Source: Posidonia oceanica
Lineage: Eukaryota; Streptophyta; Magnoliopsida; Alismatales; Posidoniaceae
Direction: 5' to 3'
Length of the DNA: 64,000 bases
Assembly (NCBI GenBank): GCA_037176725.1
Contig: JAZBRS010000035.1
Coordinates: 49,362,001-49,426,000, forward strand
Part shown: positions 21,141 through 40,433 of the stretch, in pieces
Layout: each line of letters starts with the position of its first letter
How positions within the stretch are numbered: position 1 is the first letter of the stretch
Notes under the pieces: model-generated
The model's input: the letters and a program-made list of their open reading frames with translations, nothing else
Told to the model about the DNA's origin: nothing
The model's database searches: none
Program-made: the position numbers and the translations under genes

Positions 21141-21150
21141 CAAGGTAAGT
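21141..21150 (+). promoter_or_regulatory. candidate leader 5' splice site, T3 5' LTR
   Basis: CAAG followed by GTAAGT just upstream of the 30-base array. Paired with the CAG acceptor at 23901-23903, splicing would remove about 2.76 kb containing the array, LTR end, PBS and most of the leader from a subgenomic mRNA. Confidence 0.45.
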
Positions 21151-21209
21151 CCCCCGGAACTTCGGCAGTATTGTTTTGCATATCATTCGCATCGCATGGT
21201 TTTTGCGCA

Positions 21210-22070
21210 CTCTTTTCGCTTTGTCTTGCACCGTTTTGCGTGCCGCTTCTTTGTCTCGCTCCGTTTTGCGTGCCCTTTGGTTTTCTTGCTCCGTTTTGCG
21301 TGCAGCTCTGTTTTCTTGCACCGTTTTGCGTGCCGCCTCTTTGTCTCGCTCCGTTTTGCGTGCCCTTTGGTTTTCTTGCTCCGTTTTGCGTGCAGCTCCA
21401 TTTTCTTGCTCCGTTTTGCGTGCCGCCTCTTTGTCTCGCTCCGTTTTGCGTGCCCTTTGGTTTTCTTGCTCCGTTTTGCACGTAGTTCCGTTTTCTCGCA
21501 CCGTTTTGCGTGCCGCTCCTTTGTCTTGCACCGTTTTGCGTCCCCTTTGGCTTTCTTGCTCCGTTTTACGTGCAGCTTCGTTTTCTCGCTCCATTTTGCG
21601 TGCCCTTTGGTTTTCTTGTTCCGTTTTGCGTGTAGTCTTGTTTTCTCGCTCCGTTTTGCGTGCAGCTTCGTTTTCTCGCTCAGTTTTGCGTGCCTTTTAG
21701 TTTTCTTGCTCCATTTTGCGTGTCCTTTGGTTTTCTTGCTCCGTTTTGCGCGTAGTTCCGTTTTCTCGCACCGTTTTGCGTGCCACTTCTTTGTCTTGCA
21801 CCGTTTTACGTGCCCTTTGGTTTTCTTGCTCCGTTTTGCTTGCAGCTTCGCTTTCCCGCACCGTTTTGCGTGCCCTCTCGTTTTCTCGCTCCGTTTTGCG
21901 CGCCGCCTTGTTTTCTTGCTCTGTTTTGCGCCCCTTTTTGTTTTCCCGCACTGTCTCGCATTCTTGTTCTGTTTCTCGCATCGTTTCGCGTGTCGGCCTC
22001 GCTCCTTACATCGTTTTGCATTCTTGCTTCATTTCTTGCCTCGTTTTGCGTGTTTTACGCCGTTTTCTCT
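21210..22070 (+). repeat. T3 5' LTR 30-base tandem array
   Basis: About 28 units built on TTTTCTTGCTCCGTTTTGCG, with a 90-base higher-order period. Against the 3' LTR array (38890-39740), about two 90-base blocks are gained at the left and lost at the right, yet the total length differs by only one base. No stop codons occur in several frames on both strands because the unit length is divisible by three. Confidence 0.9.
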
Positions 22071-22319
22071 TACGTGTCGATCACATTGCCTGTTTTCCCC
22101 GCTGTTTTGTTTTATCGCCCGCATTTGCATATAGGGCAGTGATGCTTACTGCCTGGAGTTCTCACGAGCCAGGTTTCGCCCGGTTCGGAACACAGACAGC
22201 GTTGCTGAGCGCTTAGATTGCACGTTTATTTTCCTGCACTGCATTCCCTCACTTAGAGCACACCTTTGAACATCTAGATAGGCATTCATTGGCACTTAGG
22301 CATTCAAAGTCTGCATTTC

Positions 22320-22406
22320 CCTGCGTATGCGAGCGTAAGCCTAGAAAGACCGATTCTCGGGCGTGTCGGGGGTGCCTAACACCTTCTCCGCGCGTAACAG
22401 GAGTCC
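22320..22406 (+). promoter_or_regulatory. conserved U5 island (T3)
   Basis: This block spans GCGAGCGTAAGCCTAGAAAG, GTGTCGGGGGTGCCTAAC and GCGTAACAGGAGTCC. It is almost unchanged in T1 (1868-1954), T2 (16030-16113), the T3 3' LTR (39990-40078) and T4 (54152-54238, minus strand), while its surroundings have diverged. It lies downstream of the presumed transcription start in R-U5. A packaging, dimerisation or processing signal is plausible but unproven. Confidence 0.55.
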
Positions 22407-22763
22407 TTACCCTCTCTTGGCCCGCAATGACCATATTGCCCTCATCCTAGGCACGAGTCACATCATTTGCATTCATTTGCATTTTATTTCTTCTGCATTG
22501 CCTTGCATTGTATCTTTTGCTTGGTTTTGCGTGGTTATTCATGCATTTCCCCGGTTTTCCTTGTCTCCCGATTTAATAGACTTGGTGGCGACTCCGATTT
22601 TGTCTTATCTTCTTCTTTTTCTTTCCCCTTTCTCTCTCTTTTAAATGTTTTCGAGTTAGGTCTTCCTCCTCGGACATAGCCGCTAATAGTGAGCCTGATT
22701 TCGATCGGTGCACGCGAGCTTTGGCAACGTGCATGGACGATCCGAACACTGGGATTACTACAG

Positions 22764-22781
22764 TGGTGACTCCGCTGGGGA
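22764..22781 (+). promoter_or_regulatory. T3 primer-binding site
   Basis: TGGTGACTCCGCTGGGGA follows the LTR end by one base. It differs from the T2 site by C to T at the CG, the change expected from methyl-cytosine decay. Confidence 0.88.
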
Positions 22782-24083
22782 TACTAGACTCCGGCTTTCG
22801 CCTTCGCTTTCCCTCGCTTGGGATTTGCTTTCTTTGTTTGCCTTTTGTGCCTTCTTTGCCTGTTTTGCTCGCTTTTCTGTGCAAGCTCCTAGCAAGTCGC
22901 CTCGTGGCTACTCTGCTTAGGTTTTTGCACCTCTTGCCTCGGTTCGCGCTCTGTTTTGCTTTGCTTTGCCTTGGCTGCTTGTTTACTTACTTATTTCCTT
23001 GCCTCTGTTCCTATTTGCTTTACAGCTTACCTGTCTTTACTTTCCTTGTCATATTTGCTTATTATTGCTTTATTTCCCGCATAATGCATGACTACATACT
23101 TGTTTGGCAACAATACATGCCTTTTGAATGATGAATGTTTTCTTTTGCACGTTTGCTATGTCACTACACATGCACATACTCTGTATATATGCATTTTGTC
23201 CTGATGAATGCTTTCCCTTCACCATCATGCTCACGAACACTCGCACATGCCATGCACTTGCCTTTTGCTTTGTTGTATGTTGATTGCTTGCCATGATTGA
23301 TTGATTTTCTTCCCTTTCGCACAATGCCATGCCCAGGATAGTAGAGACTGATTGCTTTTTCTGTGGTTAATTAAAAACGGCAAGTAAAAATAAGATCTAA
23401 GGTAACTAGAGCCATCAACACACTTCCACCCTCTTGGAGTTAATAAAATACGCAAGATAAAAAACTCTAATCATTCGCATGAAGCATCATATAGGGCATG
23501 CATCTTCTCATCTGAGTCCACCTATCAGTTTGCGAAGGATGGTCCCGGCCTCTCACCCCGATGCTTTGGCATGGTGTGAGTCGGTCGGTCTGTCCCCCCT
23601 TGTCCGGGGTTGTGTCGGTGTTAGTGGAGGGTACTTCCTACGCTTAGGCGAGGTTGAGGCCACCAACGCACCACCCTGTCATTACCTGAGCTTTGGGCCG
23701 GGAGTTAGACAGGGGGCCTACTTTTCTGACTTGAGTCGGTGACCCGTACACTTGTGGATATCCAGAGTAGACTACCTATTAGGAAACACTAGATTGGTGA
23801 GAGAGAGAGCATGCTAGAAAGCATACATGTCATTCATGCCATAACTTAATGCATTTTGCATTTCTTCTTTTTTAACCCTAGTTTTCTGTTGTGCCTTTAA
23901 CAGAGTTCAGTAAGCGATCTCCTTAGCCGGAGCTCGGGTTCCTCCCCTTGCTGACATCTCTGCTAAGACACCTGTGCTCGACCATCTTTTTCTGAGCTAC
24001 TCGCCTTTGCGAGCATAGCTCCTCGTAGAGCCCGTCCGCCTTTCCCTTGTCGCAGCCCCATTTGGACTCGCTCTCGGTCAGCA
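22782..24083 (+). other. T3 untranslated leader
   Basis: The leader is C/T-rich at first, then the block conserved with T1 and T2 from about 23340. It contains the short ORF at 23479-23742 and a pyrimidine-rich acceptor-like CAG at 23901-23903. It has no other supported feature. Confidence 0.75.
23479..23742 (+). CDS. short conserved leader ORF (87 aa), T3 copy
   Basis: This is an ATG-initiated 87-codon frame equal in length to the T1 copy and starting with the same 20 residues. No domain is recognised. It lies about 340 bases before the gag ATG and would be an upstream ORF on an unspliced mRNA, but it would be removed by the proposed leader intron. It may be a by-product of a conserved RNA segment. 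Confidence 0.35.
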   Translation: MKHHIGHASSHLSPPISLRRMVPASHPDALAWCESVGLSPLVRGCVGVSGGYFLRLGEVEATNAPPCHYLSFGPGVRQGAYFSDLSR

Positions 24084-24380
24084 ATGGCCCAGCGCACCGT
24101 CGAACCCCCTCTTGCCCTTGCCTCGGAGGTGGTTTCCGCTCCGGCCCCTCCGGCTCCCGTTTCTAACCCCTCTGTGCCCTCTGTAACGCCAGGATTTTCT
24201 CCTCTGTCGTCTGGGGCACCCCAGTTTGCTGTGGGACAGTGGCAGACACTCGCTCCTCCTGATCCGGTCGCCAAGTCTATCTTGATGGCCACTTCTCGTG
24301 TTCTGGAGGCACCATTGACCCCACCTTCTCAGGGATTTGTCACTTTTGACCCCCTTCTGCTGCGGCGACTATCGCCCTAG
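24084..24380 (+). pseudogene. T3 N-terminal gag piece, frameshifted
   Basis: It starts at the conserved ATG (GCAATGGCCCAGC). The Pro/Ala-rich N-terminal part of the Gag polyprotein has no recognised fold. A small deletion near 24345-24350 relative to T1 and T2 shifts the frame, so translation ends at 24380. The original frame reaches an amber at 24509-24511 that T1 also has. The main Gag domain follows in the frame open from 24512. Confidence 0.7.
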
Positions 24381-24646
24381 GACACCAATCTCCTGGACAG
24401 TCCAGATCTCTTGGCTCTGGCTCCTCGCCGGCACTGCAATTCAGTGTCCCCACCGACGGGACACCTGAAGAGCAGTACCAGCAACTGATGGACACTATCC
24501 AGCGGTTGTAGGGTATAGCTCTATCAGTCCGCCCTCCTTCCCCTCCTGTTGTTCCTGAGGTTCCTGTGCGGCCTGCTCTCGCACATCTTGCATTGCACTC
24601 TGCACTTCCGCCTAGACCGTCGTCTCAACTGCTCACGGTTCCGACG

Positions 24647-27600
24647 ATGGGGGCATGTATCCCGCCTCTTGCATCTGCACCACATCACACACAGCATGCA
24701 CCTCCGCCACCTGGTGGCCAGTCATTCGGACTGGTGGGAGCACAGTATCTCGCAGGCCCGTCCCCCGGCACCGCCCCGGTATGGCCGCTGATGCTCCATC
24801 ATCCTGCACCCACCACACAGCATACCATCTATCCTCCCCCTTTGCATCAGGCTCAAAATTCCACATGCATCCCTCCTTGCACTCCACCACAGCACGGGTA
24901 TGCCGGCCATCACCTTGCGTCACCAGGCGATGTGATGGTGGATCCGGAGGAGCACCTCGGTGCGACCCAATCGGCATACGTGGTCCCTGCCCCCGCTGCC
25001 CCATCACCTGTAGCAGCTATTCCAGACCCCATCAACAACAGGATGGATGTTCTAGAGAAGGCACTGCGTCTAGTGCAGGGCACGGACCACCAGACCTACC
25101 AATTCCGAGACCTCTGCTGTTTCCCAGAGGCGGTACTCCCCCCAAAGTTCAAAATACCGGACTTTGAGAAGTATGATGGTAGGGGCTGCCCCATAGCCCA
25201 TCTGAAGGCGTACTGCGGTGATCTCGCCCAACTCCAGGCGGACGAGAGGTTGCTGATCCGCCTATTCCAGAAAAGTTTGTCTGGTCCGGCCCTCAAGTGG
25301 TTCACCTCGCTTGACATGGCTATGATCAAGACTTGGAACGACCTAAGCCAGGCGTTCTTGGAACAATACTCCTTCAACCTCGATCTGGTCCCGAAGCGCG
25401 CAGACTTGATCGCAACCAAGCAGAATCCGGGTGAGCCGTTCGGGGAGTACGTCGGCCGCTGGCGTGCCCTTGCCTTACAAGTTCGAGATAGGCCCTCTGA
25501 CGAGGAGTCTATCGAGATCATCATAAAAGGGGCACAGCTATCTATCGGAGCTTTGCTTAACATCCAACCTGTCACGACCTTCACTGCTTTGATCCGAGCT
25601 GGCACTCGCGTAGAGAGTTCGTTGCAGAGTGGCAACTTCCCCGCACTCTCTGTGCTTGCCAGGCAGGCCCCCGCCAGCAACAACGATAGCAGCAGCAGTG
25701 CCATCAACAACAACAGCAGCCTCAACAACAATCGTCCCAAGAGGAAGGATCCGTCGAAGCCCGTTGTCGCGTACGTCGACTCCCCTGTTGCGCCCGTTCG
25801 TCTGGCGTCCCGGCCTGCCCCTCCTCAGATCTATTACGCACCTGCACCTAGGGCACACCCCACACCACAAATCACTACCACCGCTCGACCGGTCTACCCT
25901 ACCGCACCGGTTCAGCAAGGAAAATTCCAGAGGTCGAGACGGCCACCCACGGAGAAGCGGAAGTTCGCCCCACTGGTGGAACCGCTCACTGCCGTCCTTC
26001 CGAAGGTTGCGTCGCTCCTGAAATTTCCAGAGGTTCGCCCGCCACCAAACCCACTACCGCATTGGTTTAAGGCGAACCTTTTCTGCGATTTTCATCGAAG
26101 CGTCGGGCATTCGACTGATAGTTGCTTCACTCTCCGGAACGCTATCCAGGATTTGATCGAATCGGGAACGATTGTGATCGACACGCACAAGGCATCCACT
26201 TCTGCACCATCTCATGCACCTGCATCAGCATCTATCCCAGCTAATGTTGTCCGCCGACCCCTACTGGAGCACTCCTATTCAGGAGGCACAGGGACCTCAG
26301 GAGTCCACTCCTTGTTTCCTTCTGGGTCTCTCACATCTGTGGTAGATCCTTCCGAGCTTATCCATGATATCTCTACTCCGTTTCCAGTCTCTCTTTATCT
26401 TGCAGCTATCGCCGGTTCCGAGTCGGGCGTTCATATGATCCGACCGTGCACCAGGCCGGAGCGTTCGTCTACGTCAGCCACCATGCTTTCCCGGGCCCAA
26501 GCCCCAGCACACCTGCTAGGTAACCCTCAGCCAGTATCCCCAATACATCTCCTAGCCAGGCCTCAGCCAGAGTTTCCCATACACCTGTTAGCAAGACCTC
26601 AATCCCCACCTAGCTTACCTTCCCAGCTATCCTCCTATCCATGCCCTCCTCAGCCTGTAGCCCCTCTCGTGCTCGCAGCACGTGCTCCCGTGGTTATTAA
26701 CCTAACCCGGGATACCCATCGCGTACCTTACAGCTACGCCACGGAAATGTGTGCGGAAGTGACGCGATCGGGGAGGGTCTACAGACCTCCAGCACCAGTA
26801 GCTAGGCCTAGTCACCTAGAACCTGCAACACTCCTGCCCTTAGTCCAGCCTGCAGCCCTACTACCTTCAGGCCAGCCTCTTGAACCCACCATAGTTGAAC
26901 CTATTCCTAAAACCGTACCACCTACTACCAAGAAATGCCAACCTAAAGCCGATATCACTTCCCAGCTCAAAAAGGTTAAAGCCGACATATCCATCTGGGA
27001 CCTGATACACACTTCTGCCGAACACCGCGAGGCCTTCCTCCACGTGTTCCAAGCCGCCCGTGTATCCCAAGCCATAGAACCTGCCGCCTTGGAAAGCATG
27101 GTCGGAATGATCGCAGAGCCCCAGGTCATCACTTTCACGAGTGATGAGTTGCCTCCGGCGGGGATTAATCACAACCAACCCTTGTTCGTCACGGTACAAT
27201 TCAAGAACTTTCGCATTCCCCTTGCACTGGTCGATAATGGGTCAGGCCTTAACGTCTGTCCCTTGCGAACAGCAACCAAGCTCGGATTCAAGGCCGAGGA
27301 CATTACTCCGGCTGTAAAGGGAATGACAGCTTTTGACAATACTCACCATGACGCTCTAGGGATTCTGATTATTCCTCTGACCATTGGTCTGGTCACATTC
27401 GATGTGGAATTCTACGTCGTCGACTTGGAACCTAACTTCAACTTTCTGCTTGGGCGCCCTTGGCTCCACAAGCATCAGGTTATCCCCTCGACCCTCCATC
27501 GCATGATCAAGTTCCGCCGAGGTGACGATGTTATCGTTGTCATGGCGGAGAATTTTGAGAAGGAGCGGATTGAAGCGGTTTCCTCTGTCTCTTCACGGAC

Positions 27601-29323
27601 TGTCCCCTTTGACCCTGAACTCTCGAATGCCTTATACCGCGTTAATCGGTGCGAGCCGGTTAACTTTTTACCAGATCTCGAATGCGTCAACTCCTTGGCC
27701 GTTCACAACAACCCTTTTCAGATGGTCGAGAACGTCTGTCACAGGTGGGGCTACGTCAAAGGAACACTGCTCGGGCGGTACGGCCAGGGAATCGCTGAAC
27801 CCATCACAGCGGAAGAACGAAGAGACAACGAGGGTCTAGGGTACGACCCTCACACTGATAAAGGCAAGCGCCCGCAAGCGAAGAAGCAGAGAATGATCAT
27901 ACCTCGGAGTTTGGCTAACTTTACAAGTGCAGGTATCCTGGGTTCAAGCGCCGTTCAAGCCATAATGCCGTCGGAGCCATGTCGAACCTCTCCATCCCTG
28001 GAGAAGGACTGGGTCTGCGTTGAGGACTACTACTCCGATGAGGAACAGTCTAGCACAGTAGGGGCAGTTCAGACTTGCAGCGAAAGCCAGCCCAATTCAA
28101 CAGCACATCAGTCGATTTATCTGGCCTTTCCTTCCACAGATCATGAAGCAGCAGATTTGGCAGAACACTTGGCAGATTTGACAGTCTTTGATTCTCCTGC
28201 AGTCATGTCAGCACCATCAGCACCAACTCAAGCACAGTCAGTCAGTCCGCATGCAACCGTTGTCACATCAGTGCAACTACCACCCTCTCAGGAGGGTCAA
28301 TCGCTGAGTCCAGTCAGCAGCATAGCCCAGCCCTTTTCAGAAGCCGCATCTCAAGCAATGCAGCCAGCCCAATCAGTCACGCTTTCTCTTGCCGTAGACC
28401 GGCAACTTTCATGGCAAGATCCTATGACATCAGAGGCCGCGCTCTCATCATCATCACCAGTCACGGAGAACCAACTGAGCATCACGGTCTCCCGGCCCTC
28501 GGACCTTCAAGAGAACACCTCTGCCCATCCTCTGACAGCAGCAGTCACTCTGGCAGCATATCCATCTGCAATCCCTCTGACTAGACCATCTGGGTCTCCC
28601 TCGCCGGGGCTGTCGCAATCAGGTGTGCCCATGAGTCAGAACATACAAGTACCAGAGACAGTAATCCATCTCGCAGCCGAGCCAGTGCCACAGGCCCCCG
28701 GCGCCTACTATGTTGATTCACCTCCAGATGAGGAAGAAGAAGGGGTGATAGAAGCCCAGGTCGATTCGTGGATGTCTGATTTGGAGCTACTTTACCAGGA
28801 ACAGCTCGAATCCATAGCAGAAGACTTGGCACAACACCAAGCCGCAGAAAGGAAGGGAAAAGCCGTGGTTACGGATCACCCTCTACGAGAGGGCCCCACC
28901 TCCATCATGGCCCTGGAAGAAAACTCAAGAATGCCGGACTCCTCTAGACCCGATGAGCTCATCACCATTCAGCCCGAAGGTGGATCTAGTTGGCTTGTAC
29001 AGCACATGCCTCATTCGGGCAGGATAGCAAAGGGCGGCAGTATCCAAGTCAACTGCCAGTCCGATATGCCCTCCACAAGCATGTTAGCAGATTCAGAAGA
29101 AGAGACACCAGTAGATCACACAACCACGGCAACAGAACAGAAAGCAGAATCAGTGACAGAGTTGTCAGAAGTTTCAGTGGCAAAGTCATCAGCAGTATCA
29201 GTTGCGGAGTCGGCAAGGCTTTCAGTAGTATCAGCAGAACATGCAGCAGTATCATCAGCAACAGAGCAGACGGGAGAAGTTATCAGAATAAAGGCCGCGC
29301 GCCAAGGATGCAGAAACTCTTGA
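24647..29323 (+). CDS. T3 Gag-protease polyprotein (about 1558 aa), pol-less
   Basis: The frame is open from 24512, and 24647 is the first in-frame ATG. The retrotransposon gag core is at about residues 164-330 (PPKFKIPDFEKYDGRG, then LSQAFLEQYSFNLDLVPK). A zinc knuckle of C-x2-H-x4-H-x4-C form is at residues 480-493. A retropepsin-like protease with D-N-G-S is at 863-866. It is followed by a Ser/Gln/Glu-rich linker with an acidic YYVDSPPDEEEE stretch. Gag would form the particle and the protease would cleave it. In T2 the same frame continues into RT; here it stops at TGA 29321-29323, exactly at the deletion junction. No stop interrupts about 4.7 kb, unlike T1. Whether it is made from the 24084 start is unclear because of the upstream frameshift and amber. 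Confidence 0.85.
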   Translation: MGACIPPLASAPHHTQHAPPPPGGQSFGLVGAQYLAGPSPGTAPVWPLMLHHPAPTTQHTIYPPPLHQAQNSTCIPPCTPPQHGYAGHHLASPGDVMVDPEEHLGATQSAYVVPAPAAPSPVAAIPDPINNRMDVLEKALRLVQGTDHQTYQFRDLCCFPEAVLPPKFKIPDFEKYDGRGCPIAHLKAYCGDLAQLQADERLLIRLFQKSLSGPALKWFTSLDMAMIKTWNDLSQAFLEQYSFNLDLVPKRADLIATKQNPGEPFGEYVGRWRALALQVRDRPSDEESIEIIIKGAQLSIGALLNIQPVTTFTALIRAGTRVESSLQSGNFPALSVLARQAPASNNDSSSSAINNNSSLNNNRPKRKDPSKPVVAYVDSPVAPVRLASRPAPPQIYYAPAPRAHPTPQITTTARPVYPTAPVQQGKFQRSRRPPTEKRKFAPLVEPLTAVLPKVASLLKFPEVRPPPNPLPHWFKANLFCDFHRSVGHSTDSCFTLRNAIQDLIESGTIVIDTHKASTSAPSHAPASASIPANVVRRPLLEHSYSGGTGTSGVHSLFPSGSLTSVVDPSELIHDISTPFPVSLYLAAIAGSESGVHMIRPCTRPERSSTSATMLSRAQAPAHLLGNPQPVSPIHLLARPQPEFPIHLLARPQSPPSLPSQLSSYPCPPQPVAPLVLAARAPVVINLTRDTHRVPYSYATEMCAEVTRSGRVYRPPAPVARPSHLEPATLLPLVQPAALLPSGQPLEPTIVEPIPKTVPPTTKKCQPKADITSQLKKVKADISIWDLIHTSAEHREAFLHVFQAARVSQAIEPAALESMVGMIAEPQVITFTSDELPPAGINHNQPLFVTVQFKNFRIPLALVDNGSGLNVCPLRTATKLGFKAEDITPAVKGMTAFDNTHHDALGILIIPLTIGLVTFDVEFYVVDLEPNFNFLLGRPWLHKHQVIPSTLHRMIKFRRGDDVIVVMAENFEKERIEAVSSVSSRTVPFDPELSNALYRVNRCEPVNFLPDLECVNSLAVHNNPFQMVENVCHRWGYVKGTLLGRYGQGIAEPITAEERRDNEGLGYDPHTDKGKRPQAKKQRMIIPRSLANFTSAGILGSSAVQAIMPSEPCRTSPSLEKDWVCVEDYYSDEEQSSTVGAVQTCSESQPNSTAHQSIYLAFPSTDHEAADLAEHLADLTVFDSPAVMSAPSAPTQAQSVSPHATVVTSVQLPPSQEGQSLSPVSSIAQPFSEAASQAMQPAQSVTLSLAVDRQLSWQDPMTSEAALSSSSPVTENQLSITVSRPSDLQENTSAHPLTAAVTLAAYPSAIPLTRPSGSPSPGLSQSGVPMSQNIQVPETVIHLAAEPVPQAPGAYYVDSPPDEEEEGVIEAQVDSWMSDLELLYQEQLESIAEDLAQHQAAERKGKAVVTDHPLREGPTSIMALEENSRMPDSSRPDELITIQPEGGSSWLVQHMPHSGRIAKGGSIQVNCQSDMPSTSMLADSEEETPVDHTTTATEQKAESVTELSEVSVAKSSAVSVAESARLSVVSAEHAAVSSATEQTGEVIRIKAARQGCRNS

Positions 29324-29330
29324 GGACATG
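29311..29330 (+). other. internal deletion junction removing RT, RNases H and integrase
   Basis: The sequence passes from the end of the protease-RT linker (homologous to T2 about 46800) straight into the last codons of integrase (homologous to T2 50236). About 3.4 kb is absent. Both parental sides have ACTC at the join, so a 4-base microhomology is likely. That fits template switching during reverse transcription or end-joining. Confidence 0.88.
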
Positions 29331-29390
29331 GACCAGGTCAAGCAGTCTGAGCCGGTTAACATGTGCTACCTCAAGAAGTACTATCAGTAG
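29324..29390 (+). pseudogene. T3 integrase C-terminal remnant
   Basis: Some twenty codons (EDMDQVKQSEPVNMCYLKKY) match the extreme C-terminus of the T2 integrase reading frame and end at the same TAG (29388-29390). They are out of frame with the Gag-protease ORF, which has already stopped. Confidence 0.8.
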
Positions 29391-30676
29391 TCGGGAGTAG
29401 CCATTGCGGATCCTTCCTCCCGCTTGTCATATCTTCACCACTCGCATGTCTTTGCATCTCTATTCGCTCTATCTCCTCCATACTTTACTTCATCCCATTT
29501 CCTACATTCCCTGACATTGCAGCACTCCTGTGCATCCCTGCTCATCCCGTTCACATTCCTCATCAAATCATGCATTGCATGGATGCCCGGTGATGAAAAC
29601 CGGAGGTGCTTGCCTGCTGCGAAAGGAGTCTCCCGACTTCACCTGATACTACTTAGATGTCTTGGCTAGTGAGGGAGCCACTACTCAATGAGAGCGGGCG
29701 AAATGCCCAAACCCCTAAGGACTTACACCTTTAGAAGAGTGCTAGGTATTAGTCAGAAAGCAATACATATTTCAGCCTAGATGCGCAAGAAAAGAGAGAA
29801 AGAGAGAGCCAAAAGTCTGTACCCGAAAGACCCTAACACCCACTTCCTCTAGGGAGGGGACAGCGGAAACCTGTAAGCCCAAAAAAAAAAGAGGAAGAAA
29901 AGAAAAAGAAAAAAAGAAGAAAAAGGGAAAGAAAAAGAATGAAAAAAGGAAAAACAAAAAAAAAACAAAAAAACAAAAAAAAAAAACAAAAAGAGAATGA
30001 TAGAAAAGGAAAGGGTGGGGGACAAAGGCTCCATTCCCACAAAAAAAAAGAGAGAAAGAAGAAGAGAATAAAGGCAGGCAGGGTAACCCCGCACCTCTCA
30101 CCTACCCCAAAAAAAGAGTCAAAGTCCGGACCAGGTCCTCCTTATTTCCAAATTGGGAATGAAGAGAGCCCTGCGCACCGACATAAAAAAGAGAGAAGGA
30201 AGAGGTAGGAGCGAGTGTAAGTCCTTGAGAGTTTGGCATGGAGCCCGTCCACTCTACACCACCACCAAACATCACCGACACCCTTTCCTAGAGTGCCACC
30301 AACAAGTCAGGAGTCTGAGTAGAGTCTGGTGAATCAGGGACCGCTCTTTTCATATACAGCAGGCACCAAAGCACCCCGATACTGAGGGCAAACTACACCA
30401 ATCACGCATGCATCTGCATTTTTCCAGTCATCTCCCCCTTTCTGATCATTCTACTCTGCAAAGGCTTACTCCAGCACTGAGGCAGTACTTCCACTCAGCA
30501 CACGTTGGCACCATCAGGCTGCGACAACCCGGGACTCCCGCCAATCCCCGCCGCATCAACAGAATCTCTTTGCTTACATATGTTCAATTGCCATAGTCTG
30601 AATGTTTACTGTTGAGTGTGTTGGATTGCTTTTACCAGGTTCAAAATCTGCTTTCCGATAATAGTCTTGTGCCTAT
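29391..30676 (+). other. T3 spacer between pol end and extra ORF
   Basis: This is untranslated sequence conserved with T2 50310-51637. An A-rich purine tract (about 29880-30060) sits in the middle and gives only low-complexity frames. The 30090-30676 part is unremarkable apart from an acceptor-like pyrimidine/CAG context before the extra ORF. Confidence 0.7.
29880..30060 (+). repeat. A-rich purine tract
   Basis: Nearly pure A/G with long A runs. T2 has the same tract at 50885-51000 in the same place. It could be a central polypurine tract, an A-rich translation or splice element, or decayed poly(A). The sequence does not decide. Confidence 0.6.
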
Positions 30677-31963
30677 ATGAGATCTGATAATCCACAGTCT
30701 TGGCAACAGGTATCTGAAGATTTTGTGACAGCCGTCCGCCTACATTCTGCAATCTGTGCAATGGGTTTCCCCACTCTAGTGACCCCGACACACTGTTCTG
30801 AGATCCTGCGAGAATGGATCGGCAAGCTTACCAAAGATGACTGTGAGAAGCTGCGCCTGTGGGGCATTCCGACCAAGTTGCTAAAGGCTACTGATGTAGA
30901 AGTAAGCCGCCGTCTTCTGTGTGCTGCTGCGCGATTCTGGAAATCGGCACACCACGTCTTATGTTTCGGTAAAACTGAACTGACACCTACACTAGAAGAA
31001 GTGTGTCGGATCTGTGGCTTTTCCAAGATCCTGGGGCCACCCATCTTCATGAGGCGTGACGGATACATCGCAGTCTTGAAACAGCTGACCGGCCTCTCTA
31101 CCCGAAGTTGCCAGCAGAAACTGATTTGCACTAGCGGGCCCATGCCTCTGCTTCGCCTAGCATATTTTGATGATATTGTGGAAAAGCACGCTGAACTCGG
31201 AGACGAGCTGTGGCTCCGAGGGTTTGTTACCCGTTTCCTAGGCGAGCTGGTCTTTACTCATGGCAAGACCACGATGGCTGTCGAGATCACTGAAATAGCA
31301 CTCGCTGTGGTGACTCGCCAGATAGACTTAGCACCGGTTGTCCTGGCAGAAACATACTGCGGACTGGACCGCATCTCACATCGCTGCTGCCACTTCCATG
31401 GTTGCAGAGCACTCATTCAGGTCTGGCTAGCCGCACACACTGAGATGGACCTTCTGCACCCCCAAGTACATGCTTTCGAGGCCTACTGCAACAGCGGCCA
31501 TGCCAAGACAGTCAAGAGCGTCAAGGAAGAACACGAAAGGCTATCAGGACTGACAGATGACACAGTAACCTAGCGCATCATTCCTTCTGCGGCCGAACCA
31601 TTCACTGTCTTCTTCAATGCGCGCGACATGCGGCTAATCGTGCTACCGAGATTCACTGCGTGTGTGGAATACCACCCTATCAGAGTCATGCGCCAGTTCG
31701 GCTTCCAGCAAGACGCCTTTGTCGACAGCACAGCACCTAGGCTCCTTCAAGAATATCCCCTCAGTACAATTGCCCCGACGAAGGAGCTGGCCAATCTGAT
31801 GCAGTATGGCGTGCGGTCAACAGACATCGCAGCTACGAGAGGCATAGGATGTACCCCTGAGTACATCACCCAGGTGCAGGACCTCTGGCCCATCGACGAA
31901 ATCCCGCCAAGCGGTCCCTTGTTCCCTGACTCTAGAAAATCAAAGAAGGCCCGAATCAGCTAG
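30677..31963 (+). pseudogene. T3 extra ORF: DUF7745/plant-mobile-domain-like protein, one internal stop
   Basis: An ATG at 30677 opens 298 codons to TAG 31571-31573; the same frame continues to TAG 31961-31963 (428 codons in all). The Met at 30761 (MGFPTLVTPTH) is the start best conserved with T2. Features that resemble the plant transposon-associated DUF7745 family are LREWIGKLTKDDCEKL, then AARFWKSAHHVLCFGKTELT, TLEEVCRICGFS, FLGELVFTHG, LAPVVLAETYCGLD and ALIQVWLAAH. The family has no known biochemical role. The ORF lies 3' of pol, as in several Tat-lineage elements, and homologues are in T2 and T4. The internal TAG corresponds to TGG in T2, a G to A change in a CTG (CHG) context, so it is probably recent. 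Confidence 0.75.
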
Positions 31964-32339
31964 GGCCATCATGTAGCTGTCACTCTGTCTTCCTTTCAAG
32001 TTGTGCTGTACTTTTTGGCCTGCCACAGGCATGTAACCAACAGTTCTATCAATGCAAAAGCGTTTTGTGCTGGCTGTTCACAGTTCAAAGCTGATTAATG
32101 CATTCCATGCTCCCCGCCGCTCACATCCGGAGGCCCCTGGCCCGACTTGTTGCCCGCGTGACGAAAGTCCTCAGCAAACGACCCAGGCTCCAGGATCTCT
32201 GCGGACCCATGTCGTCAAATCCTGCTACCGGACATCCGCAGCTGAGTCTTCATTGGGCTGGTACCCCAAACTACTCGTCTGACAAACACGTCAGTTTTGT
32301 ACATCCTTCGCCTTTCGATGCCAGGGACGTTTCGACCAA
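31964..32339 (+). other. T3 start of 3' untranslated zone
   Basis: This is non-coding sequence with homology to T2 52976-53409 and T4 62100-62940. One copy of the unit containing CAGCTGAGTC and ACTACTCGTCTGACAAAC is present; it is partly duplicated in T2 and expanded to a 113-base tandem array in T4. No gene is seen. Confidence 0.65.
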
Positions 32340-32384
32340 CCCCTGGTATCATCCTGATACCAGGGGCATCTTTTCAGATGCCCC
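32340..32384 (+). other. pair of mutually exclusive hairpins (T3)
   Basis: Arms CCCCTGGTATCA (32340-32351) and TGATACCAGGGG (32355-32366) form a perfect 12-bp stem with a 3-base loop. GGGGCATC (32363-32370) and GATGCCCC (32377-32384) form a second 8-bp stem that uses the same GGGG. T2 (53410-53450) and T4 (62060-62099) keep both stems with compensating changes. Confidence 0.75.
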
Positions 32385-32419
32385 GCGGTATCTCATCCAT
32401 GTCACCACCTTCCTCTTTG

Positions 32420-32760
32420 CCGGCCGATAAGTCCGATATCTTATCACCTTTTTCAATCAATCAATCTCATCATTATCTCATCCCCTCTTTGCCGGCCGAT
32501 AAGTCCGATATCTTATCACCTTTTTATCAAGCAATCTCATCATTATCTCATCCCCTTCTTTAGCAATCAATCTCATCACTATCTCACCCCCTTCTTTAGC
32601 AATAGCTCTCATCATTACCTCTTCTCCCTTCTTTAGCAATAGCTCTCATCATTATCTCATCCCCTCTTATCAAGCAATCAATCACTCATCAATCAATCAC
32701 TCATCAGTCAATCACTCAGCAATCAATCACTCATCAATCAATCATTCATCAATCAAGCAC
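32420..32760 (+). repeat. T3 short tandem repeats, GATAAG and TCATCAATC types
   Basis: Two copies of the GCCGGCCGATAAG / CTTATC unit (about 32420-32445 and 32493-32520) are followed by CTTTAGCAAT...CTCATCATTATC units (32555-32670) and by a low-complexity TCAATCACTCA stretch to 32760. The middle units are the same family that is expanded to about sixteen 36-base copies in T4. Confidence 0.75.
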
Positions 32761-33040
32761 TCTCAGGCTGATATCCTAAACTATCTGCTCTCAGGCTGAT
32801 ATCCTAAACTATCTGCTCAGGCTGATATCCTAAACTATCTGCTCTCAGGCTGATATCCTAAACTATCTGCTCTCAAGCTGATATCCTAAACTATCTGCTC
32901 TCAGGCTGATATCCTAAACTATCTGCTCAGGCTGATATCCTAAACTATCTGCTCTCAGGCTGATATCCTAAACTATCTGCTCAGGCTGATATCCTAAACT
33001 ATCTGCTCTCAGGCTGATAACCTAAACTATCATCTTGGCC
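32761..33040 (+). repeat. T3 tandem array of GGCTGATATCCTAAACTATC units
   Basis: About ten units of 24-28 bases (GGCTGATATCCTAAACTATC plus a TGCTCTCA or TGCTCA spacer). Each contains GATA and TATC as inverted arms 8 bases apart, and AGG/CCT as a second, interleaved pair. Confidence 0.85.
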
Positions 33041-33990
33041 GATCCATGGTTGGCCCGCAGTTGTGTTATACGGCTGACATCCAGTAACTGTCACTCGTAA
33101 TTGCCCTTTCCAGTTGATAGGACTGTAAACTATCGTTCCAGTTGATAGGACTGTAAACTATCGCTCTTGGCTGATGACCCAAAACTCATCCTAGGCTGAT
33201 AACCTAAACTATCACTGGCAATTACGTTATACGGCTGATATCCAGTAACTATCCCTTGCAATTGCTCTTTCCGGTTGATAGGACCATAAACTATCGCTAG
33301 GCTGATAACCTAAACTATCGCTAGGCTGATAACCTAAACTATCACTCACAATTGCATTATACGGCTGATATCCAGTAACTATCACTCGCAAACACCCTTT
33401 CCAGTTGATAGGACTGTAAACTATCGTTCCAGTTGATAGGACTGTAAACTATCATTCTCTGGCTGATGATCCAAAACTCATCCTGGGCTGATATCCAAAA
33501 CTATCACGGGTTTGCGTTATACGGCTGATATCCAGTAACTATCCCTCATAATTGCTCTTTCCGGTTGATAGGACCGTAAACTATTGCTAGGCTGATAACC
33601 TAAACTATCGCTAGGCTGATAACCTAAACTATCACTCGCAATTATGTTACACGGCTGATATCCAGTAACTATCCCTCATGGTTTGCCCTTTCCAGTTGAT
33701 AGGACTGTAAACTATCGTTCCAGTTGATAGGACTGTAAACTATCATTCTCTGGCTGATGATCCAAAACTCATCCTAGGCTGATAACCTAAACTATCACTT
33801 GCAACCATGTTATACGGCTGATATCCAGTAACTATCACTCACAACTGCACCTTCCGGTTGATAGGACCGTAAACTATCGCTCCAGTTGATAGGACTGTAA
33901 ACTATCGCTCCGGTTGATAGGACCGTAAACTATCGCCCTTGGCTGATGATCCGAAACTCATCCGGTCGATGAGTCCGACAACTTATCACC
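33041..33990 (+). repeat. T3 ordered array of complementary domains in the 3' untranslated zone
   Basis: The outer arms GCAGTTGTG (33057-33065) and CACAACTGC (33840-33848) enclose five domains, each closed by its own pair: 33097-33105/33217-33225, 33258-33264/33349-33355, 33387-33393/33510-33516, 33547-33555/33638-33646 and 33677-33686/33801-33809. Linkers of 30-32 bases with TTATACGGCTGATATCCAG separate them. Inside are units with GATAG/CTATC, GATGA/TCATC or GATA/TATC arms. A tail of five similar units runs to 33990. It is not coding. Confidence 0.85.
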
Positions 33991-34394
33991 TCCTCCGCGC
34001 GGCTTCGTCCCAAAGGATGGAGCCCCGCATCCTTCCGCGTCTGGGAAAGGGTCCATCTCTCCCGTCGCACTTTTGTGGGCATTGGCCATTCTTCTTTCTG
34101 TAGCAGGTCTGGACTTCCCACCAAGCTCCGCGACGCGCTGCAACGCCCCTCTTCAGCGTCATCGGCATCACCAGCGTCATCCGCGTCATTTTGGCCTCCC
34201 TTCGGTACTAAATTCAGCACTAACTTTTGCATTGCACCCGCATTAGCATGCATCGCATATACTGCATTTCTTGCATCTGCACCTGCACATTGCGCTGCGG
34301 CAACGATCTACGATGTTCGGTGCATCCGCCGAATAAGTGGCTCACGCCGATAACAACCCTCTGCTCTCGCTAGTCAAATGGGATGTCCCGTCAA
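33991..34394 (+). other. T3 unique 3' untranslated segment before the PPT
   Basis: This is moderately GC-rich sequence homologous to T4 59680-60170 (for example GCGCTGCGGCAACGATC and CCGCCGAATAAGTGGCTCAC). Short open frames occur on both strands without conservation. No gene is supported. Confidence 0.6.
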
Positions 34395-34434
34395 CCCTGA
34401 GCAGCGGCCTCGCTTCGCTTGACCTCGCTCAGGG
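34395..34434 (+). other. hairpin abutting the T3 PPT
   Basis: CCCTGAGC (34395-34402) pairs with GCTCAGGG (34427-34434), with an inner AGCG/CGCT pair. T4 keeps CCTGAGC and GCTCAGG at 59635-59641 and 59666-59672 with an inner AGCGG/CCGCT pair. The last AGGG of the stem is the start of the PPT. Confidence 0.65.
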
Positions 34435-34443
34435 AGGGGCATC
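34431..34443 (+). promoter_or_regulatory. T3 polypurine tract
   Basis: AGGGAGGGGCATC immediately precedes the 3' LTR start TGTTGACACC. It is the RNase-H-resistant primer for plus-strand DNA. The same 13 bases, reverse complemented, stand at 59625-59637 in T4. Confidence 0.88.
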
Positions 34444-37400
34444 TGTTGACACCCCATTTTGACAGGTCGGATCGATTGGAACCTTCTAGTGGCTGCTGAA
34501 CTCGAATCTAGACCCAAACCCACACCTTTCTCTTCCTCTTTCCCCTCAAAATAAGCCCAAACTAGACCTAAGATTACCCCCCTTTTCTGAACCTGAAAAC
34601 TAACCAAAATCCATAGGAAGACTCACCCCTGATGACTTAGTAAACCCACCAAAAAGCCTGCAAAAATTCAAACCGGAACCCCTCCCAAAAACCATAGGAA
34701 ACTTAGGCAAAACCACCTTTTTCTACACCTTAAAACCCCTCCAAAACCTCCTCAGAATCAAACCTAAACCTCAAAACCAGCTCTAGAAACCCTAGCCCCC
34801 ACACCCGCCAAGTTTCACCCCTTTCCGAGACCTTTAAGCCCTCCTTTTGGCCAAATTATCGTTTTCTCTCTTCGGGATTATCGTTTTCTCTCTCCTCTCT
34901 CTCTCTCCTGATTATCGTCTCCCTTTTCATCCCCTTCTTGCCCTTTTTCTGGCTTGGCTGTGGGCCCCCTTTGTACTTCTATCCCTTCTCTATCTTATTT
35001 CTATTTTTATTTTATTTTTAGCATTTTCCCTGAATTTTAAAAAATCAATTGCCCTCAAACCTATCTCTTTTCCCTCCATTTCCCTCCTTTTCCCATTTCT
35101 TTCCTCCTCCTCTTTCCCTTTTCTCTCTTTTGCAAAAACCCATAAAAATCCCTAAAAATCTGTAAAACCCCAAAACATAAAAGAGACAAATCAGAGTTCT
35201 AAGAAAAACAACTAAAAAACATTAAACAAGCAATTAAAAACTTAAACTTAACTAAATCAAGCTCAAGCATGCAAACTAAAAAATGCAAAACAAACCAAAA
35301 GAAAACACTGAAAAATCGAGGAAAAAACTAAAATAAAATCAAAACCCACCAAAAGTAAAAACCCCCATCAGAAGAACTAAAAAAACAAACCCTAAAAAGA
35401 AGAATTAAAAAATAAACACTAAGATAAGTAATTAAAGAAGCAAAAAGACTTAACCTAATAAACATAAGAAAAACAACATGAGGACTTAATTAAAAAGGAA
35501 AAGGAAAACACGTTTAAAAGACTTAAAAAAACACCCCATCAAGCCAGAGAAATCCAACTAAAAATTTCAAGAAGAATTAACAAATAAAAAATCAAAACAT
35601 AATTCAAAAGACTTAAGAAAAGAAAACCTTAAAAGATTAAAACTAAAAGCCAAAACCCACTCTAATTAATATAAAAATAAATCCTAAAAATCCTAATTAA
35701 CATCCTAAAATACTTAACAAGAAAACACAATTTTAAAAAACAATTTAAAAGATTTAACAAACACTTAATCAAGTGGAAAACAAATTAAAAACAAAAGAAA
35801 GCCCTAAAACCCTAATCAAGCCCAAAACACATTAATTAATCCCAAAACAGTCATTAAAAAATCTAATTAAAACCCTAACCCACAACACAACCTTTCTAGT
35901 ATATTCATTTATTTTTAATTTATTTTTTCTAATTTTATTTCCTTTCTTTCCCCTCTCTTTCTTTCTTTCTTCCTTTTTATTTTCCTTTCTTCCTTACTGG
36001 GCCCATCAGCCCGTTTTCCTTTTTCCTTCTTTTTTTCAAAATCCCAGGCCCGGCCCGCGACATCCCTCCTTCCTCCCTTCTTCTTCCTCCTCTCCCGCCT
36101 CTCTGACTTCTCTGAGCTCCTGCCATAGTCAGCCCTGCCATTGCCAGCCCTCGCCAGACCTGCTCTCGCACGCCTCCTGCTCGAGCCGGACCGGCGTGCG
36201 CCGAACCTCGTCCGTGCTCCTGCCATCGCCCCTCCTCGGCATTCAATTGCCGCAGTCCTGCGAAATCAGAAAAAAGGAGGAGAGATCAGAACCATAACGG
36301 GAGGGAGAGGAAAAAAGACAGACCAGAAGCATCCTGGAGAGAGATCTCTCTTGTGTGTGATCCCCAATGAGAGAGAACCGATAATTCCCCCAGCTCCATT
36401 CACAGAAAACGAGTTTTTCTTCGCCCTCTTCCCTTCATTGCTAACAGAGACCAGAACTCCTCCGAAGTCATTCGGAATTGGCCCCCGAATCTCACCCAAG
36501 CTTCCTGCAACACACCCCTCCATTCCACACAAAGAACGAACCCAGCATTTCCCCCGAATCCCGCTGGAAACCGGCAGAACCCAACTCCGATCCCTTTCGG
36601 AATTGCCCGCACCACAGACCATCTTTCCTCCCCAAACTTTGCCCCATTACTCACTGAGACACCACCTCCCTAAGCCACCCGGCCTTCAGCCCTCTCCCTC
36701 ACCACAGACGAAACCTTCCACCGCAAACACCTACGCCAGCATTCTGTCCAAAACCACCACTTCTGCAACTTCACTCTCCAGGCCTTCACAAACTCTTTCG
36801 ACCACCCAGAACCCACCATCGAACCTCCAGCTACCCACCGGAAGCCTCCGCTCGATCCAGAGAGCAACATACCGCTCTCCCCACCTCAGACGACTTCCCC
36901 TGCACCCAAAAGTGCTATCTTTTCCGCCGGCCCGCGAAGCTTTAGTCCAATCATCCAGAAAGCTCCGGAGGGTTGCGTAGAGTCGATCCAAACGCTCGCA
37001 AGCCGCTGACGACGCCCGCACGCTCCGGACGATCACCGCCGGCATCTGCAGAGCCCACCTGCGTCGGGGAGACGCTCCGGACAGTGCAACAGGTATATTC
37101 TTCCACCTTTAGTCTCCCCTTCCTCTCCTCTCGCTTTTCCGCCCCTCAAAAGAGGATTCTGCGGCCGTTTTCGCGAGGTCAGCGCCGCCGCTGACCTTCT
37201 TCCCCGACGAGCTCGACGCTCGTCCCGTCGCGCCGAGCTGCAGAACGACCTCCCATTGGTCGTCCTGGCTCCGCACGGCCTCCTGGACTCCAGCTGCGGC
37301 CTCCGCTTCCTCCGTCAGCGCCTCCTCTCGCCGGACTGCCTTCAGATCAGTTCAGACCTCCGGTGGCTCCTCAGCTCCGCTCCAGACCGCGTCGCCGCTC

Positions 37401-40400
37401 GCCGGACGTCTCCCGTGCTCTGCCAGGACCTGGCGACTCTCTCCCGCCGGACCACCTTGCCGTCAGTAGCCATTTGCCCCCTTTGTCGGCCACTGGTAGC
37501 GACTGCTACAGTGGCCGACGGCCTGCGATATTACTGTAGCAAAATTTCCTTTTACCTTAATTGTTTTACCCTAAAATTGCATATCTGGTTTTAGTTTTCA
37601 TTATTTTGCGTTTCAGTCCTTATTTCATTTAACTTGCTGCATTGTTGAATCAAAATCATATTAAATCGCATGATCTGTTTATGGTTTTTAGTATTTGCAT
37701 GATAGTCCAGTTACTGTGCTTTCCAGTTGTAAAAAATTAGATTTTGGCCCTTCTATTCTTGATTTTAGCATTTAGATCCTGCAGTAGTTTATTTAATTTT
37801 AATGCTGTAACTTTGCCTTATTGCATTGCATTCTGAGTCCCTGTTGTTTTCTGATTTTGCACTTTAGTCCACTGCACTGTAGAACTTAGGATTTATTTTC
37901 TTATTTTGCTTGTTGCATTGCATATTCTTCCTTCTGTTTTCTCATTTTTGCATGTAGGTCCGTTCCATTGCACAGTAGCTATTTCAGTGCATATTTAGCT
38001 TATTAAATTGCATTTTCAGCCCTGCATATTGTAAAAATTGCATGTCAGTCCACAGTCTGTCCATCCAGAGCATATTTAGCTTATAAAATTGCATTTTTTA
38101 GACCCTGCATGGTTTTAAAATTACACATAGGCCCCCTGCATGCTTATAAAAATCATATAAACGCATGTTTGCTTATGAAATCGCATTTTAGCCCCTATGT
38201 TTGAAAGATTGCACGTAAGTCCCCCACTTGCATTCCCAGACTGCTTAGAACCCTGTTTTTTCTGGAAAATTGCATTTTAGACCCTAAAGACTTCAAAATC
38301 GCTTTCCAACTTGCCACATGTTTTCAAAGCCTGTTCTGATGCATACCCCTCCTGAAATATTGCATTTTAAACCCCATCCTTTGCAAAATTGCATACAGCC
38401 CTTTCCTTTTTTCAAAATTCTTGCATGAAAGCCCCAAACTCTTCCAAACTTTTGCATTTAGACCCCCATCTTGCTAAAAATTGCGTTTGAACTCCCAGTT
38501 TTCTGAAAAATCCCCTTGAGTCCTTTTTTTGCATTTTGCATGCATTCTGCATCCATTTAGCTTTGCATTTTAGCATCCTCTTGCACACACTAAGCTCCAC
38601 TAGCTCCCATTCACCTGGGAGGACCTGTCTGCACACCCCTAGGACCCTTGAACACTTAGAGCTGTTCTTCTCCCCTATTCTGGCCCTTCTGCCATGAAGT
38701 TGCGATATCTTCCAATCCGACCGTTGGATCTCCCCAAATAAGCTGCCAGAGCGACCCCGGCGGAGTATTCTTCAGCATAGACCAATCAGATTTCAGATTA
38801 GGCTTTGGATGCCCAAGGTAAGTCCCCCGGAACTTCGGCAGTATTGTTTTGCATATCATTCGCATCGCATGGTTTTTGCGCACTCTTTTCGCTTTGTCTT
38901 GCACCGTTTTGCGTGCCGCCTCTTTGTCTCGCTCCGTTTTGCGTGCCCTTTGGTTTTCTTGCTCCGTTTTGGGCGTAGTTCCGTTTTCTCGCACCGTTTT
39001 GCGTGCCGCTCCTTTGTCTTGCACCGTTTTGTGTCCCCTTTGGCTTTCTTGCTCCGTTTTATGTGCAGCTTCGTTTTCTCGCTCTATTTTGCGTGTCCTT
39101 TGGTTTTCTTGCTCCGTTTTGCGTGCAGTCCTGTTTTCTTGCTCCGTTTTGCGTGCAGCTTCGTTTTCTCGCTCTGTTTTGCGTGCCCTTTGGTTTTCTT
39201 GCTCCATTTTGCGTGCAGTCCTGTTTTCTTGCTCCGTTTTGCGTTCAGCTTCGTTTTCTCGCTCCGTTTTGCGTGCCCTTTGGTTTTTTGCTCCGTTTTG
39301 CGTGTAGTCCTGTTTTCTCGCTCCGTTTTGCGTGCAGCTTCGTTTTCTCGCTCCGTTTTGCGTGCCCTTTAGTTTTCTTGCTCCATTTTGCTTGCCCTTT
39401 GGTTTTCTTGCTCCGTTTTACGCGTAGTTCCGTTTTCTCGCACCGTTTTGCATGCCGCTTCTTTGTCTTGCACCGTTTTGCGTGCCCTTTGGTTTTCTTG
39501 CTCCGTTTTGCGTGCAGCTTCGCTTTCCCGCACCGTTTTGCGTGCCCTCTCGTTTTTTCGCTCCATTTTGCGCGCCGCCTTGTTTTCTTGCTCTGTTTTG
39601 CGCCCCTTTTCGTTTTCCCGCACTGTCTCACGTTCTTGTTCTGTTTCTGGCATCGTTTCGCGTGTTGGCCTCGCTCCTTGCATCGTTTTGGTTCTTGCTT
39701 CATTTCTTGCCTCGTTTTGCGTGTTTTACGCCGTTTTCTCTTGCGTGTCGATCGCATTGCCTGTTTTCCCCGCTGTTTTGTTTTATCGCCCGCATTTGCA
39801 TATAGGGCAGTGATGCTTACTGCCTGGAGTTCTCACGAGCCAGGTTACGCCCGGTTCGGAACACAGACAGCGTTGCTGAGCGTTTAGATTGCACGTTTAC
39901 TTTCCTGCACTGCATTCCCTCACTTAGAGCACACCTTTGAACATCTAGATAGGCATTCATTGGCACTTAGGCATTCAAAGTCTGCATTTCCCTGCGTATG
40001 CGAGTGTAAGCCTAGAAAGACCGATTCTCGGGCGTGTCGGGGGTGTCTAACACCTTCCCCGCGCGTAACAGGAGTCCTTACCCTCTCTTGGCCCGCAATG
40101 ACCATATTGCCCTCATCCTAGGCACGAGTCACATCATTTGCATTCATTTGCATTTTATTTCTTCTGCATTGCCTTGCATTGTATCTTTTGCTTGGTTTTG
40201 CGAGGTTATTCACGCATTTCCCCGATTTTCCTTGTCTCCCGATTTAATAGACTTGGTGGCGACTCCGATTTTGTCTTATCTTCTTCTTTTTCTTTCCCCT
40301 TTCTCTCTCTTTTAAATGTTTTCGAGTTAGGTCTTCCTTCTCGGACATAGCCGCTAATAGTGAGCCTGATTCCGATCGGTGCATGCGAGCTTTGGCAACG

Positions 40401-40433
40401 TGCATGGACGATCCGAACACTGGGATTACTACA
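34444..40433 (+). repeat. T3 3' LTR (5990 bp)
   Basis: This is a near-identical copy of the 5' LTR. By eye the A-rich tract (35170-35870) shows no difference, while several changes cluster in the first 150 bases and in the 30-base array (38890-39740). Long open frames (36141-36980, 39003-39887, and reverse-strand frames) are low-complexity or repeat-derived. It ends ATTACTACA at 40433. Confidence 0.95.
38890..39740 (+). repeat. T3 3' LTR 30-base tandem array
   Basis: Same unit as at 21210-22070, with a different order of GCAGCTTCG, GCAGTCCTG and GCCCTTTGG variants. The overall anchor-to-anchor length is 1000 versus 1001 bases in the 5' LTR. Confidence 0.9.

Follow-up and report, generated by a model that had tools for sequence, protein, structure and literature searches.

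A very abundant Ogre-type retrotransposon of Posidonia oceanica carries tandem repeats close to its 3′ end. Are they repeats without function, a structure of the DNA, or a folded RNA? In Tat/Ogre elements such 3′ arrays are abundant in many plants and are a source of satellites (PMC7004042), and in Retand elements they are family-specific, with origin and function called unknown (PMC11963269). The first-pass annotation of the window, by which we mean the whole stretch of 64,000 nucleotides analysed, read one such zone as a multibranch, covarying fold of RNA or of cruciform DNA, kept up by selection or by a palindrome-correcting mechanism. Permutation, comparison with other copies and folding bear out the multibranch, covarying fold; cruciform DNA and palindrome correction are disfavoured on other grounds given below. 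The zone is very probably a structured cis-acting RNA that is under selection and forms part of the genomic RNA of an Ogre/Tat element. It would be built at three levels, namely an outer helix, up to five helix-closed domains joined by a recurring linker, and strings of inner two-stem units.

Host element and plan of the zone

The window consists of stacked long Ty3/gypsy elements, one of which, T3, contains the zone (Table 1). The attribution of T3 to the Ogre elements in the first-pass annotation agrees with the domains found and with the literature, according to which the pol order of Ogre/Retand elements is RT, RNase H, second RNase H, integrase, and an extra plant mobile domain ORF is present in 57% of Ogres (PMC6317226). 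An intron between gag-protease and RT is another mark of Ogre elements. The pol of the element T4 is ordered RVT_1, RT_RNaseH_2/RT_RNaseH, RVT_3, H2C2, rve by Pfam, so that the additional RNase H precedes integrase as the rule demands, and the mobile domain (PF10536) is present. Neither Pfam nor tblastn with the pol proteins of T4 gave a match to RT, RNase H or integrase anywhere in T3. Judging from its sequence, T3 is a non-autonomous Ogre-like element in which pol was not found, and a fairly young one, its LTRs being 97.4% alike. The zone sits between the mobile-domain ORF and a purine-rich stretch preceding the 3′ LTR, and in all four further loci for which 8 kb upstream were inspected, pol and then the mobile-domain ORF precede the zone.

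Some other features of these elements are recorded here as well. T3 is 23.7 kb long, and its gag/G-patch frame is open over 1603 residues. The G-patch domain lies 3′ of the protease at 24512-29323 in T3 and at 43806-48590 in T4, in the latter before RT and in one open frame with it; betaretroviral proteases have a comparable arrangement, with a G-patch behind the protease. The G-patch part is a possible nucleic-acid-binding partner. A-rich tracts are found 5′ of the mobile-domain ORF (29881-30012 in T3, 50885-51000 in T4), and the LTRs contain 30-bp (90-bp) repeat arrays with the core CGTTTTGCGTGCC at 15411-15735, 21215-21930, 38888-39617 and 54504-54733.

Structured units reach past the coordinates of the first-pass annotation, to about 32345-33980. 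All six complementary word pairs that it listed are found at their positions, and a 27-nt linker, present six times, marks every domain boundary. The alternating domain lengths that it had noticed arise because the inner units number 4, 3, 4, 3 and 4.

Table 1. Positions of the host element, its zone and related features, numbered within the window.
Feature	Position	Strand	Remarks
T3, complete Ogre/Tat-type LTR retrotransposon containing the zone	16777..40433	+	LTR pair, target-site duplication
T3 LTRs	16777-22762 and 34444-40433	+	97.4% identity over 5993 aligned positions
T3 target-site duplication CTTAC	16772-16776 and 40434-40438		read from sequence
T3 ORF: gag, protease-like, G-patch	24512..29323	+	Pfam; protease match under curated cut-off
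Plant mobile domain ORF, 5′ of zone	30665..31573	+	PF10536 E 5e-13; relatives genome-wide
H1 hairpin GGTATC/GATACC (some other copies GGTGTC/GACACC)	32345..32361	+
Two P-type two-stem units, S1 CGG/CCG, S2 GATAAG/CTTATC	32421-32445 and 32493-32517	+
B1-type unit array, S1 AGG/CCT, S2 GATA/TATC; nine complete and one with altered S1	32760..33032	+
Outer closing stem, 5′ strand GCAGTTGTG	33057-33065	+	pairs with 33840-33848
Linker 1, S2 GACA/TGTC	33066..33092	+
Domain 1, closing stem CGTAATTGCC/GGCAATTACG, four two-stem units	33096..33226; words 33096-33105 / 33217-33226	+
Linkers 2-6, S2 GATA/TATC	33227-33253, 33357-33383, 33517-33543, 33647-33673, 33810-33836	+
Domain 2, closing stem TGCAATTG/CAATTGCA, three two-stem units	33257..33356; words 33257-33264 / 33349-33356	+
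Domain 3, closing stem CGCAAAC/GTTTGCG, four two-stem units	33387..33516; words 33387-33393 / 33510-33516	+
Domain 4, closing stem CATAATTGC/GCAATTATG, three two-stem units	33547..33646; words 33547-33555 / 33638-33646	+
Domain 5, closing stem CATGGTTTGC/GCAACCATG, four two-stem units	33677..33809; words 33677-33686 / 33801-33809	+	one-base bulge
Outer closing stem, 3′ strand CACAACTGC	33840-33848	+
Three more A-type units 3′ of outer stem	33855..33934	+
P-type unit array at the end of T4	53532..53845	+	ends at start of minus-strand element's LTR
Second domain zone, element on minus strand	60252..61084	-	identical six-stem plan

Several further repeats were seen in the surroundings of the two zones. 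Directly upstream of each lies a pyrimidine-rich array of 36-nt repeats (32458-32683 on the plus strand; 61238-61835 on the minus strand, with 16.6 copies). Two upstream hairpins are found at 32345-32384 (GGTATC/GATACC vs GGTGTC/GACACC) and at 62094-62056 on the minus strand (GGGGC.../...GCCCC), the first of which covaries between copies: among 12 matches to H1, nine read GGTATC...GATACC, two GGTGTC...GACACC and one AGTGTC...GACACC. A 113-bp repeat at 62196-62674 (minus) has arms resembling a hairpin (CAGCTGG...CCCAGCTG, with variants); it also contains stretches of the form GGGCTGGCACCCC...TGCC that look like additional two-stem units.

Pairing and folding of the closing stems

With the words 3′ of the linkers called L1-L6 and those 5′ of them R1-R6, the proposed fold pairs Li with Ri+1 and L6 with R1. 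In T3 this pairing tops all 720 permutations on both scales, with a duplex energy of 68.2 (61.2 for the runner-up, 33.7 on average) and a Watson-Crick run of 50 (45 for the runner-up, 27.2 on average), and in the minus-strand copy (61084-60252) it is again the best of 720, with an energy of 70.6 (next 65.5) and a run of 50 (next 46). The words of domains 3 and 4 in the minus-strand copy are wholly unlike those of T3, the remaining words being partly different or identical. Domains 3 and 4 have own-pair energies of -11.0 and -10.3 in T3 and of -7.2 and -17.1 in the minus copy, and crossing their words between the two copies yields -2.3 to -3.6; in the other four stems pairing persists on crossing (-7.8 to -14.6).

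The sample was then 40 loci on one contig, found by exact linker match, together with the two copies of the window. Linkers sought with up to 4 edits numbered 175 in these 42 loci (1-6 per locus, six in ten loci). Wherever two linkers lay less than 160 nt apart, the words between them were paired, and 32 loci contributed 100 such pairs, 62 of them distinct. A duplex of -7 kcal/mol or better is formed by 96 of the 100 adjacent word pairs, and four are weaker. For the 62 distinct pairs the mean duplex is -12.85, against -6.76 (sd 0.40, best -7.94) in 500 re-pairings, and within loci right partners average -13.1 (n=100) and wrong partners -5.8 (n=282). The outer stem, formed from the first right word and the last left word found, has an energy of at least -8.3 at 26 of the 41 loci, the other 15 being uninformative since the first linker found there is not the zone's first. 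The first-pass annotation had asked whether flanking words in relatives might be non-complementary, and whether shuffled orders might match equally; other copies retain complementary words, and shuffled orders yield fewer matched pairs.

Folding without pseudoknots points the same way. In all ten six-linker copies every one of the six closing stems appears in the MFE structure with 7 or more of its 11 pairs, at a mean pair probability of 0.74-1.00. The folding z-scores of the whole zone are modest, at -1.86 (1 of 20 shuffles folds equally well) and -3.60 (0 of 20). A plain tandem repeat or satellite should show an identical word at each boundary and no covariation, and this is not what we find.

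Could the arms nevertheless have been kept alike in tandem repeats that do nothing, by template switching at hairpins, which is palindrome correction, or by the exchange of whole domains as blocks? The tandem repeats of these elements are thought to stem from illegitimate recombination or strand transfer (PMC7004042), and an exchange of whole domains moves both words jointly, which leaves fewer independent changes to be counted. On the other hand, the word pairs include a CATGGTTTG/CAACCATG class of 16 stems, every one of which retains a one-base bulge, with 0 perfect versions among the 100 pairs, and this disfavours the palindrome-correcting mechanism because correction would be expected to erase the bulge. 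About a dozen distinct complementary word pairs of differing sequence, by a count made by eye, and interleaved stems of 3-6 bp that covary inside single units (see below) also argue against a zone without function, which we regard as the least probable of all the readings considered here.

Inner units, linkers and their record in the genome

The domains are filled with units of ~21-25 nt, unnoticed in the first-pass annotation, each of which has two interleaved stems in the geometry of an H-type pseudoknot, as in C-CGGT-T-GATAG-G-ACCG-TAAA-CTATC. S1 has 3-5 bp and S2 4-6 bp, and L1 of the unit is short and L3 A-rich. Each stem occurs in several forms in which both sides change together, S1 as CGGT/ACCG, CAGT/ACTG, TAGG/CCTA, TTGG/CCAA, GGG/CCC and CGG/CCG, and S2 as GATAG/CTATC, GACAG/CTGTC, GGTAG/CTACC, GATGA/TCATC, GATAAG/CTTATC, GGTA/TACT and GGCA/TGCT. 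A scan for this geometry finds 31 non-overlapping units in 1290 nt of T3, against 0-5 in 20 dinucleotide shuffles, and 20 units in 1000 nt of the minus copy, against 1-6; in other 2000-nt pieces of the window the scan gives 0 (LTR), 7 (gag) and 4 (LTR repeat). The reversed sequence (18 units vs 31 in T3, 14 vs 20 in the minus copy) was dropped as a null for these counts, because pairing is symmetric and is retained on reversal.

For covariation we collected 590 copies of unit A (114 distinct), 185 of B1 (26), 83 of B2 (16) and 279 of P (43), the B2 set being 99 matches less 16 that start with A, in another register. The search anchors were mostly unpaired letters (TAAA, AAAC, the linker), plus GG/CC of S1 in B and P, so that the constancy of these letters is no test. 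The observed value for paired cells is reached by none of 1000 column shuffles in types A, B1 and P. The same test is weak for B2 (reached in 1 of 1000 shuffles with all forms, in 80 with the three recurrent forms), and for the linker (124 and 511 of 1000) it is weak because few linker forms exist. When the structure is given in pseudoknot brackets, all 26 distinct B1 forms together have a covariation score of 0.296 (shuffled 0.175), and the score is 0.157 for the 26 of 114 A forms seen at least 3 times (shuffled 0.117), values reached by 0 of 500 shuffles in either case, and slid structures score far below the true one. Two of five covariation measures were not above the shuffles, namely changes on both sides (341 of 500 for B1, 53 of 500 for A) and the number of further pair types (401 of 500 for B1, 474 of 500 for A).

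Where neighbouring A units differ, pairs taken within the own unit match in 139 of 162 cases for S1, 87 of 90 for the S2 pair 8/22 and 18 of 22 for the S2 pair 7/23, and pairs taken across units match in 23 of 162, 3 of 90 and 4 of 22. Roughly one A copy in three has a non-standard S1 pair 4/12, and 10 of the 26 B1 forms leave the outer pair of S1 open. Two interleaved stems that both covary within the unit, one mark of an H-type pseudoknot, are found, with the reservation that some measures are not above shuffles. Our model has both stems forming simultaneously. Rough pseudoknot energies, from approximate stacking values and penalties, are about equal to those of the best nested hairpins and often slightly worse, and the two stems could alternate instead of forming together.

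Rfam gave 0 matches in the window at the gathering score; in 31900-34450 there are 5 matches up to E 5, all to snoRNA models on the other strand (best E 0.29). The B2 units at 33460-33482 and 33751-33773 read CTGATGA...AAAAC (GAAAC in some copies) and look like the hammerhead core, CUGAUGA...GAAAC. A hammerhead ribozyme was rejected for B2, as there is no Rfam ribozyme match and the GATGA of the would-be core pairs with TCATC.

The linker has one variable S2 pair, which among exact copies genome-wide is T-A in 67,537, C-G in 45,303, T.G in 227 and C.A in 920; it is T-A or C-G in 112,840 of 113,987, and one-sided forms number 1,147 against 54,827 expected under independence, all of these being counts of copies in one genome that mostly reflect descent and not independent events. 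One-sided linker forms failed to spread, as these counts show. The excess of C.A over T.G is the reverse of wobble tolerance and fits a presumed cytosine decay at a CHG site. No exact linker match was found in viral_contigs. Like those for the linker, the other counts given here are of copies, all from one genome, and not of independent events.

Independently of the zone, the family was sampled with the mobile-domain protein as query against the genome that encodes it; out of 66,544 first-look candidates 130 were scored, and 30 loci were listed. P units with at least 5 of 6 S2 pairs are present at all 29 listed loci besides that of the window, as are B1 units downstream (29 of 29), in what are the closest relatives of T3 and no random sample of the family. 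Zones behind these matches were inspected at six of the 20 places initially chosen, on six contigs, and linkers are present in all six (4, 4, 4, 4, 5 and 6). All 18 word pairs across gaps of less than 160 nt reach -9.8 or better there; of three wider gaps, in which a linker is lost or altered, two pair (-9.2, -10.7) and one fails (-2.3).

RNA or DNA, the role of the zone, and known systems

In 28 distinct unbulged stems, chosen for having at least 7/9 Watson-Crick pairs, we count 10 G.T mismatches, 10 A.C and 11 others. With G.T and A.C equally common, the mismatches give no sign of wobble on the sense strand and do not indicate which strand matters. A structure that works as single-stranded or cruciform DNA, for example in minus-strand cDNA, would sit well with this lack of strand preference, and the reverse complement also gives many units in the pseudoknot scan (20 vs 31 in T3, 11 vs 20 in the minus copy). 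However, the interleaved inner stems of 3-6 bp cannot share one cruciform, which disfavours the cruciform of the first-pass annotation, and short AT-rich stems would probably be weak as DNA. We consider a DNA structure very unlikely, and infer that the pairing is selected in RNA of the sense strand.

As to what a selected RNA would do, we suggest that the zone could be a multivalent platform for Gag, an RNA-binding protein that the element itself encodes, perhaps acting jointly with the G-patch part, and that this recognition would pick full-length RNA for packaging. Nothing in the present sequence data connects the zone to Gag. We tentatively favor packaging as the likeliest job, ahead of export or stability but short of an even chance, because modular, family-specific arrays of variable domain number suit additive multivalent binding by an element-encoded partner. 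That the zone is retained in the pol-less T3 is expected of a cis element.

Alternatively, the zone might let full-length RNA leave the nucleus or escape decay. It lies between the last ORF and the 3′ LTR, the far-downstream ORF suggests a spliced mRNA, Ogre elements are partly spliced (PMC6317226), and the MusD element, with pseudoknot and kissing-loop motifs, is a precedent (PMC12786077). The family-specific repeats of Retand (PMC11963269) would nevertheless be easier to reconcile with a partner encoded by the element than with a host factor that is conserved, and we hold an export or stability element to be possible but doubtful. A role in translation or at the RNA 3′ end, akin to the upstream pseudoknot domain of tobacco mosaic virus (TMV), which acts in replication and translation (PMC4683447), is suggested by the tandem H-type-like units in the 3′ untranslated region of a plant RNA. 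Such a role is unlikely, since a 6-kb LTR lies 3′ of the zone, which is thus not the RNA end. In addition, the RNA is presumably polyadenylated, which counts against a 3′-end element.

One such array carries base-level signs of a selected fold at three levels, and its linker, with over 100,000 copies in a single genome, offers a ready mutational record. The purpose of Tat/Ogre 3′ repeats thereby becomes directly testable by probing and binding assays, and descriptions as repeats only may mask structured RNA. It is conceivable, though we would not expect it, that the hypervariable repeats of Tat/Ogre elements are in general fast-evolving RNA machines, strings of pseudoknot beads on a scaffold of covarying helices, tuned to the Gag of each family as a code for self-recognition and packaging, and that plant satellites derived from them inherit folded RNA units.

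The 3′ repeats of Tat/Ogre elements were reportedly first described by Macas in 2009. The hypervariable 3′ repeats of Tat/Ogre/Retand elements are like the zone in place (pol to 3′ LTR) and in being tandem, family-specific and variable in number, but they are published as repeats and sources of satellites, whereas the zone here has a probable RNA fold (PMC7004042, PMC11963269). The accessible parts of both articles describe no RNA fold of the arrays; the words 'hairpin' and 'pseudoknot' are absent from PMC11963269, as is 'hairpin' from PMC7004042. Titles and the starts of abstracts in the open-access PMC literature, to which we confined ourselves, contain no report of such a fold in Tat/Ogre arrays, and the sole pseudoknot met with in open-access literature on Ogre retrotransposons and pseudoknots is that of MusD, in a review. 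The 3′ array region is thus already known, and its RNA architecture was not found described in the open-access material covered.

Repeated pseudoknots are known from other RNAs. In a picornavirus 5′ UTR two to four repeated pseudoknot units of ~48 nt, thought to have originated by duplication, are required for infectious virus; these are far fewer units than in the zone, and closing-helix domains go unmentioned in the source text at hand. The upstream pseudoknot domain of the TMV 3′ UTR has consecutive pseudoknots in a plant RNA, as is proposed for the zone, but it has few units, lies near the RNA 3′ end and belongs to a genome unrelated to Ogre. The MusD transport element, to be compared along with the retroviral constitutive transport elements, belongs to an LTR element and is a folded RNA that includes a pseudoknot motif (PMC12786077), as the zone would be. 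It is not known to be a repeat array. Export, an established function of MusD-type elements, is a candidate role for the zone.
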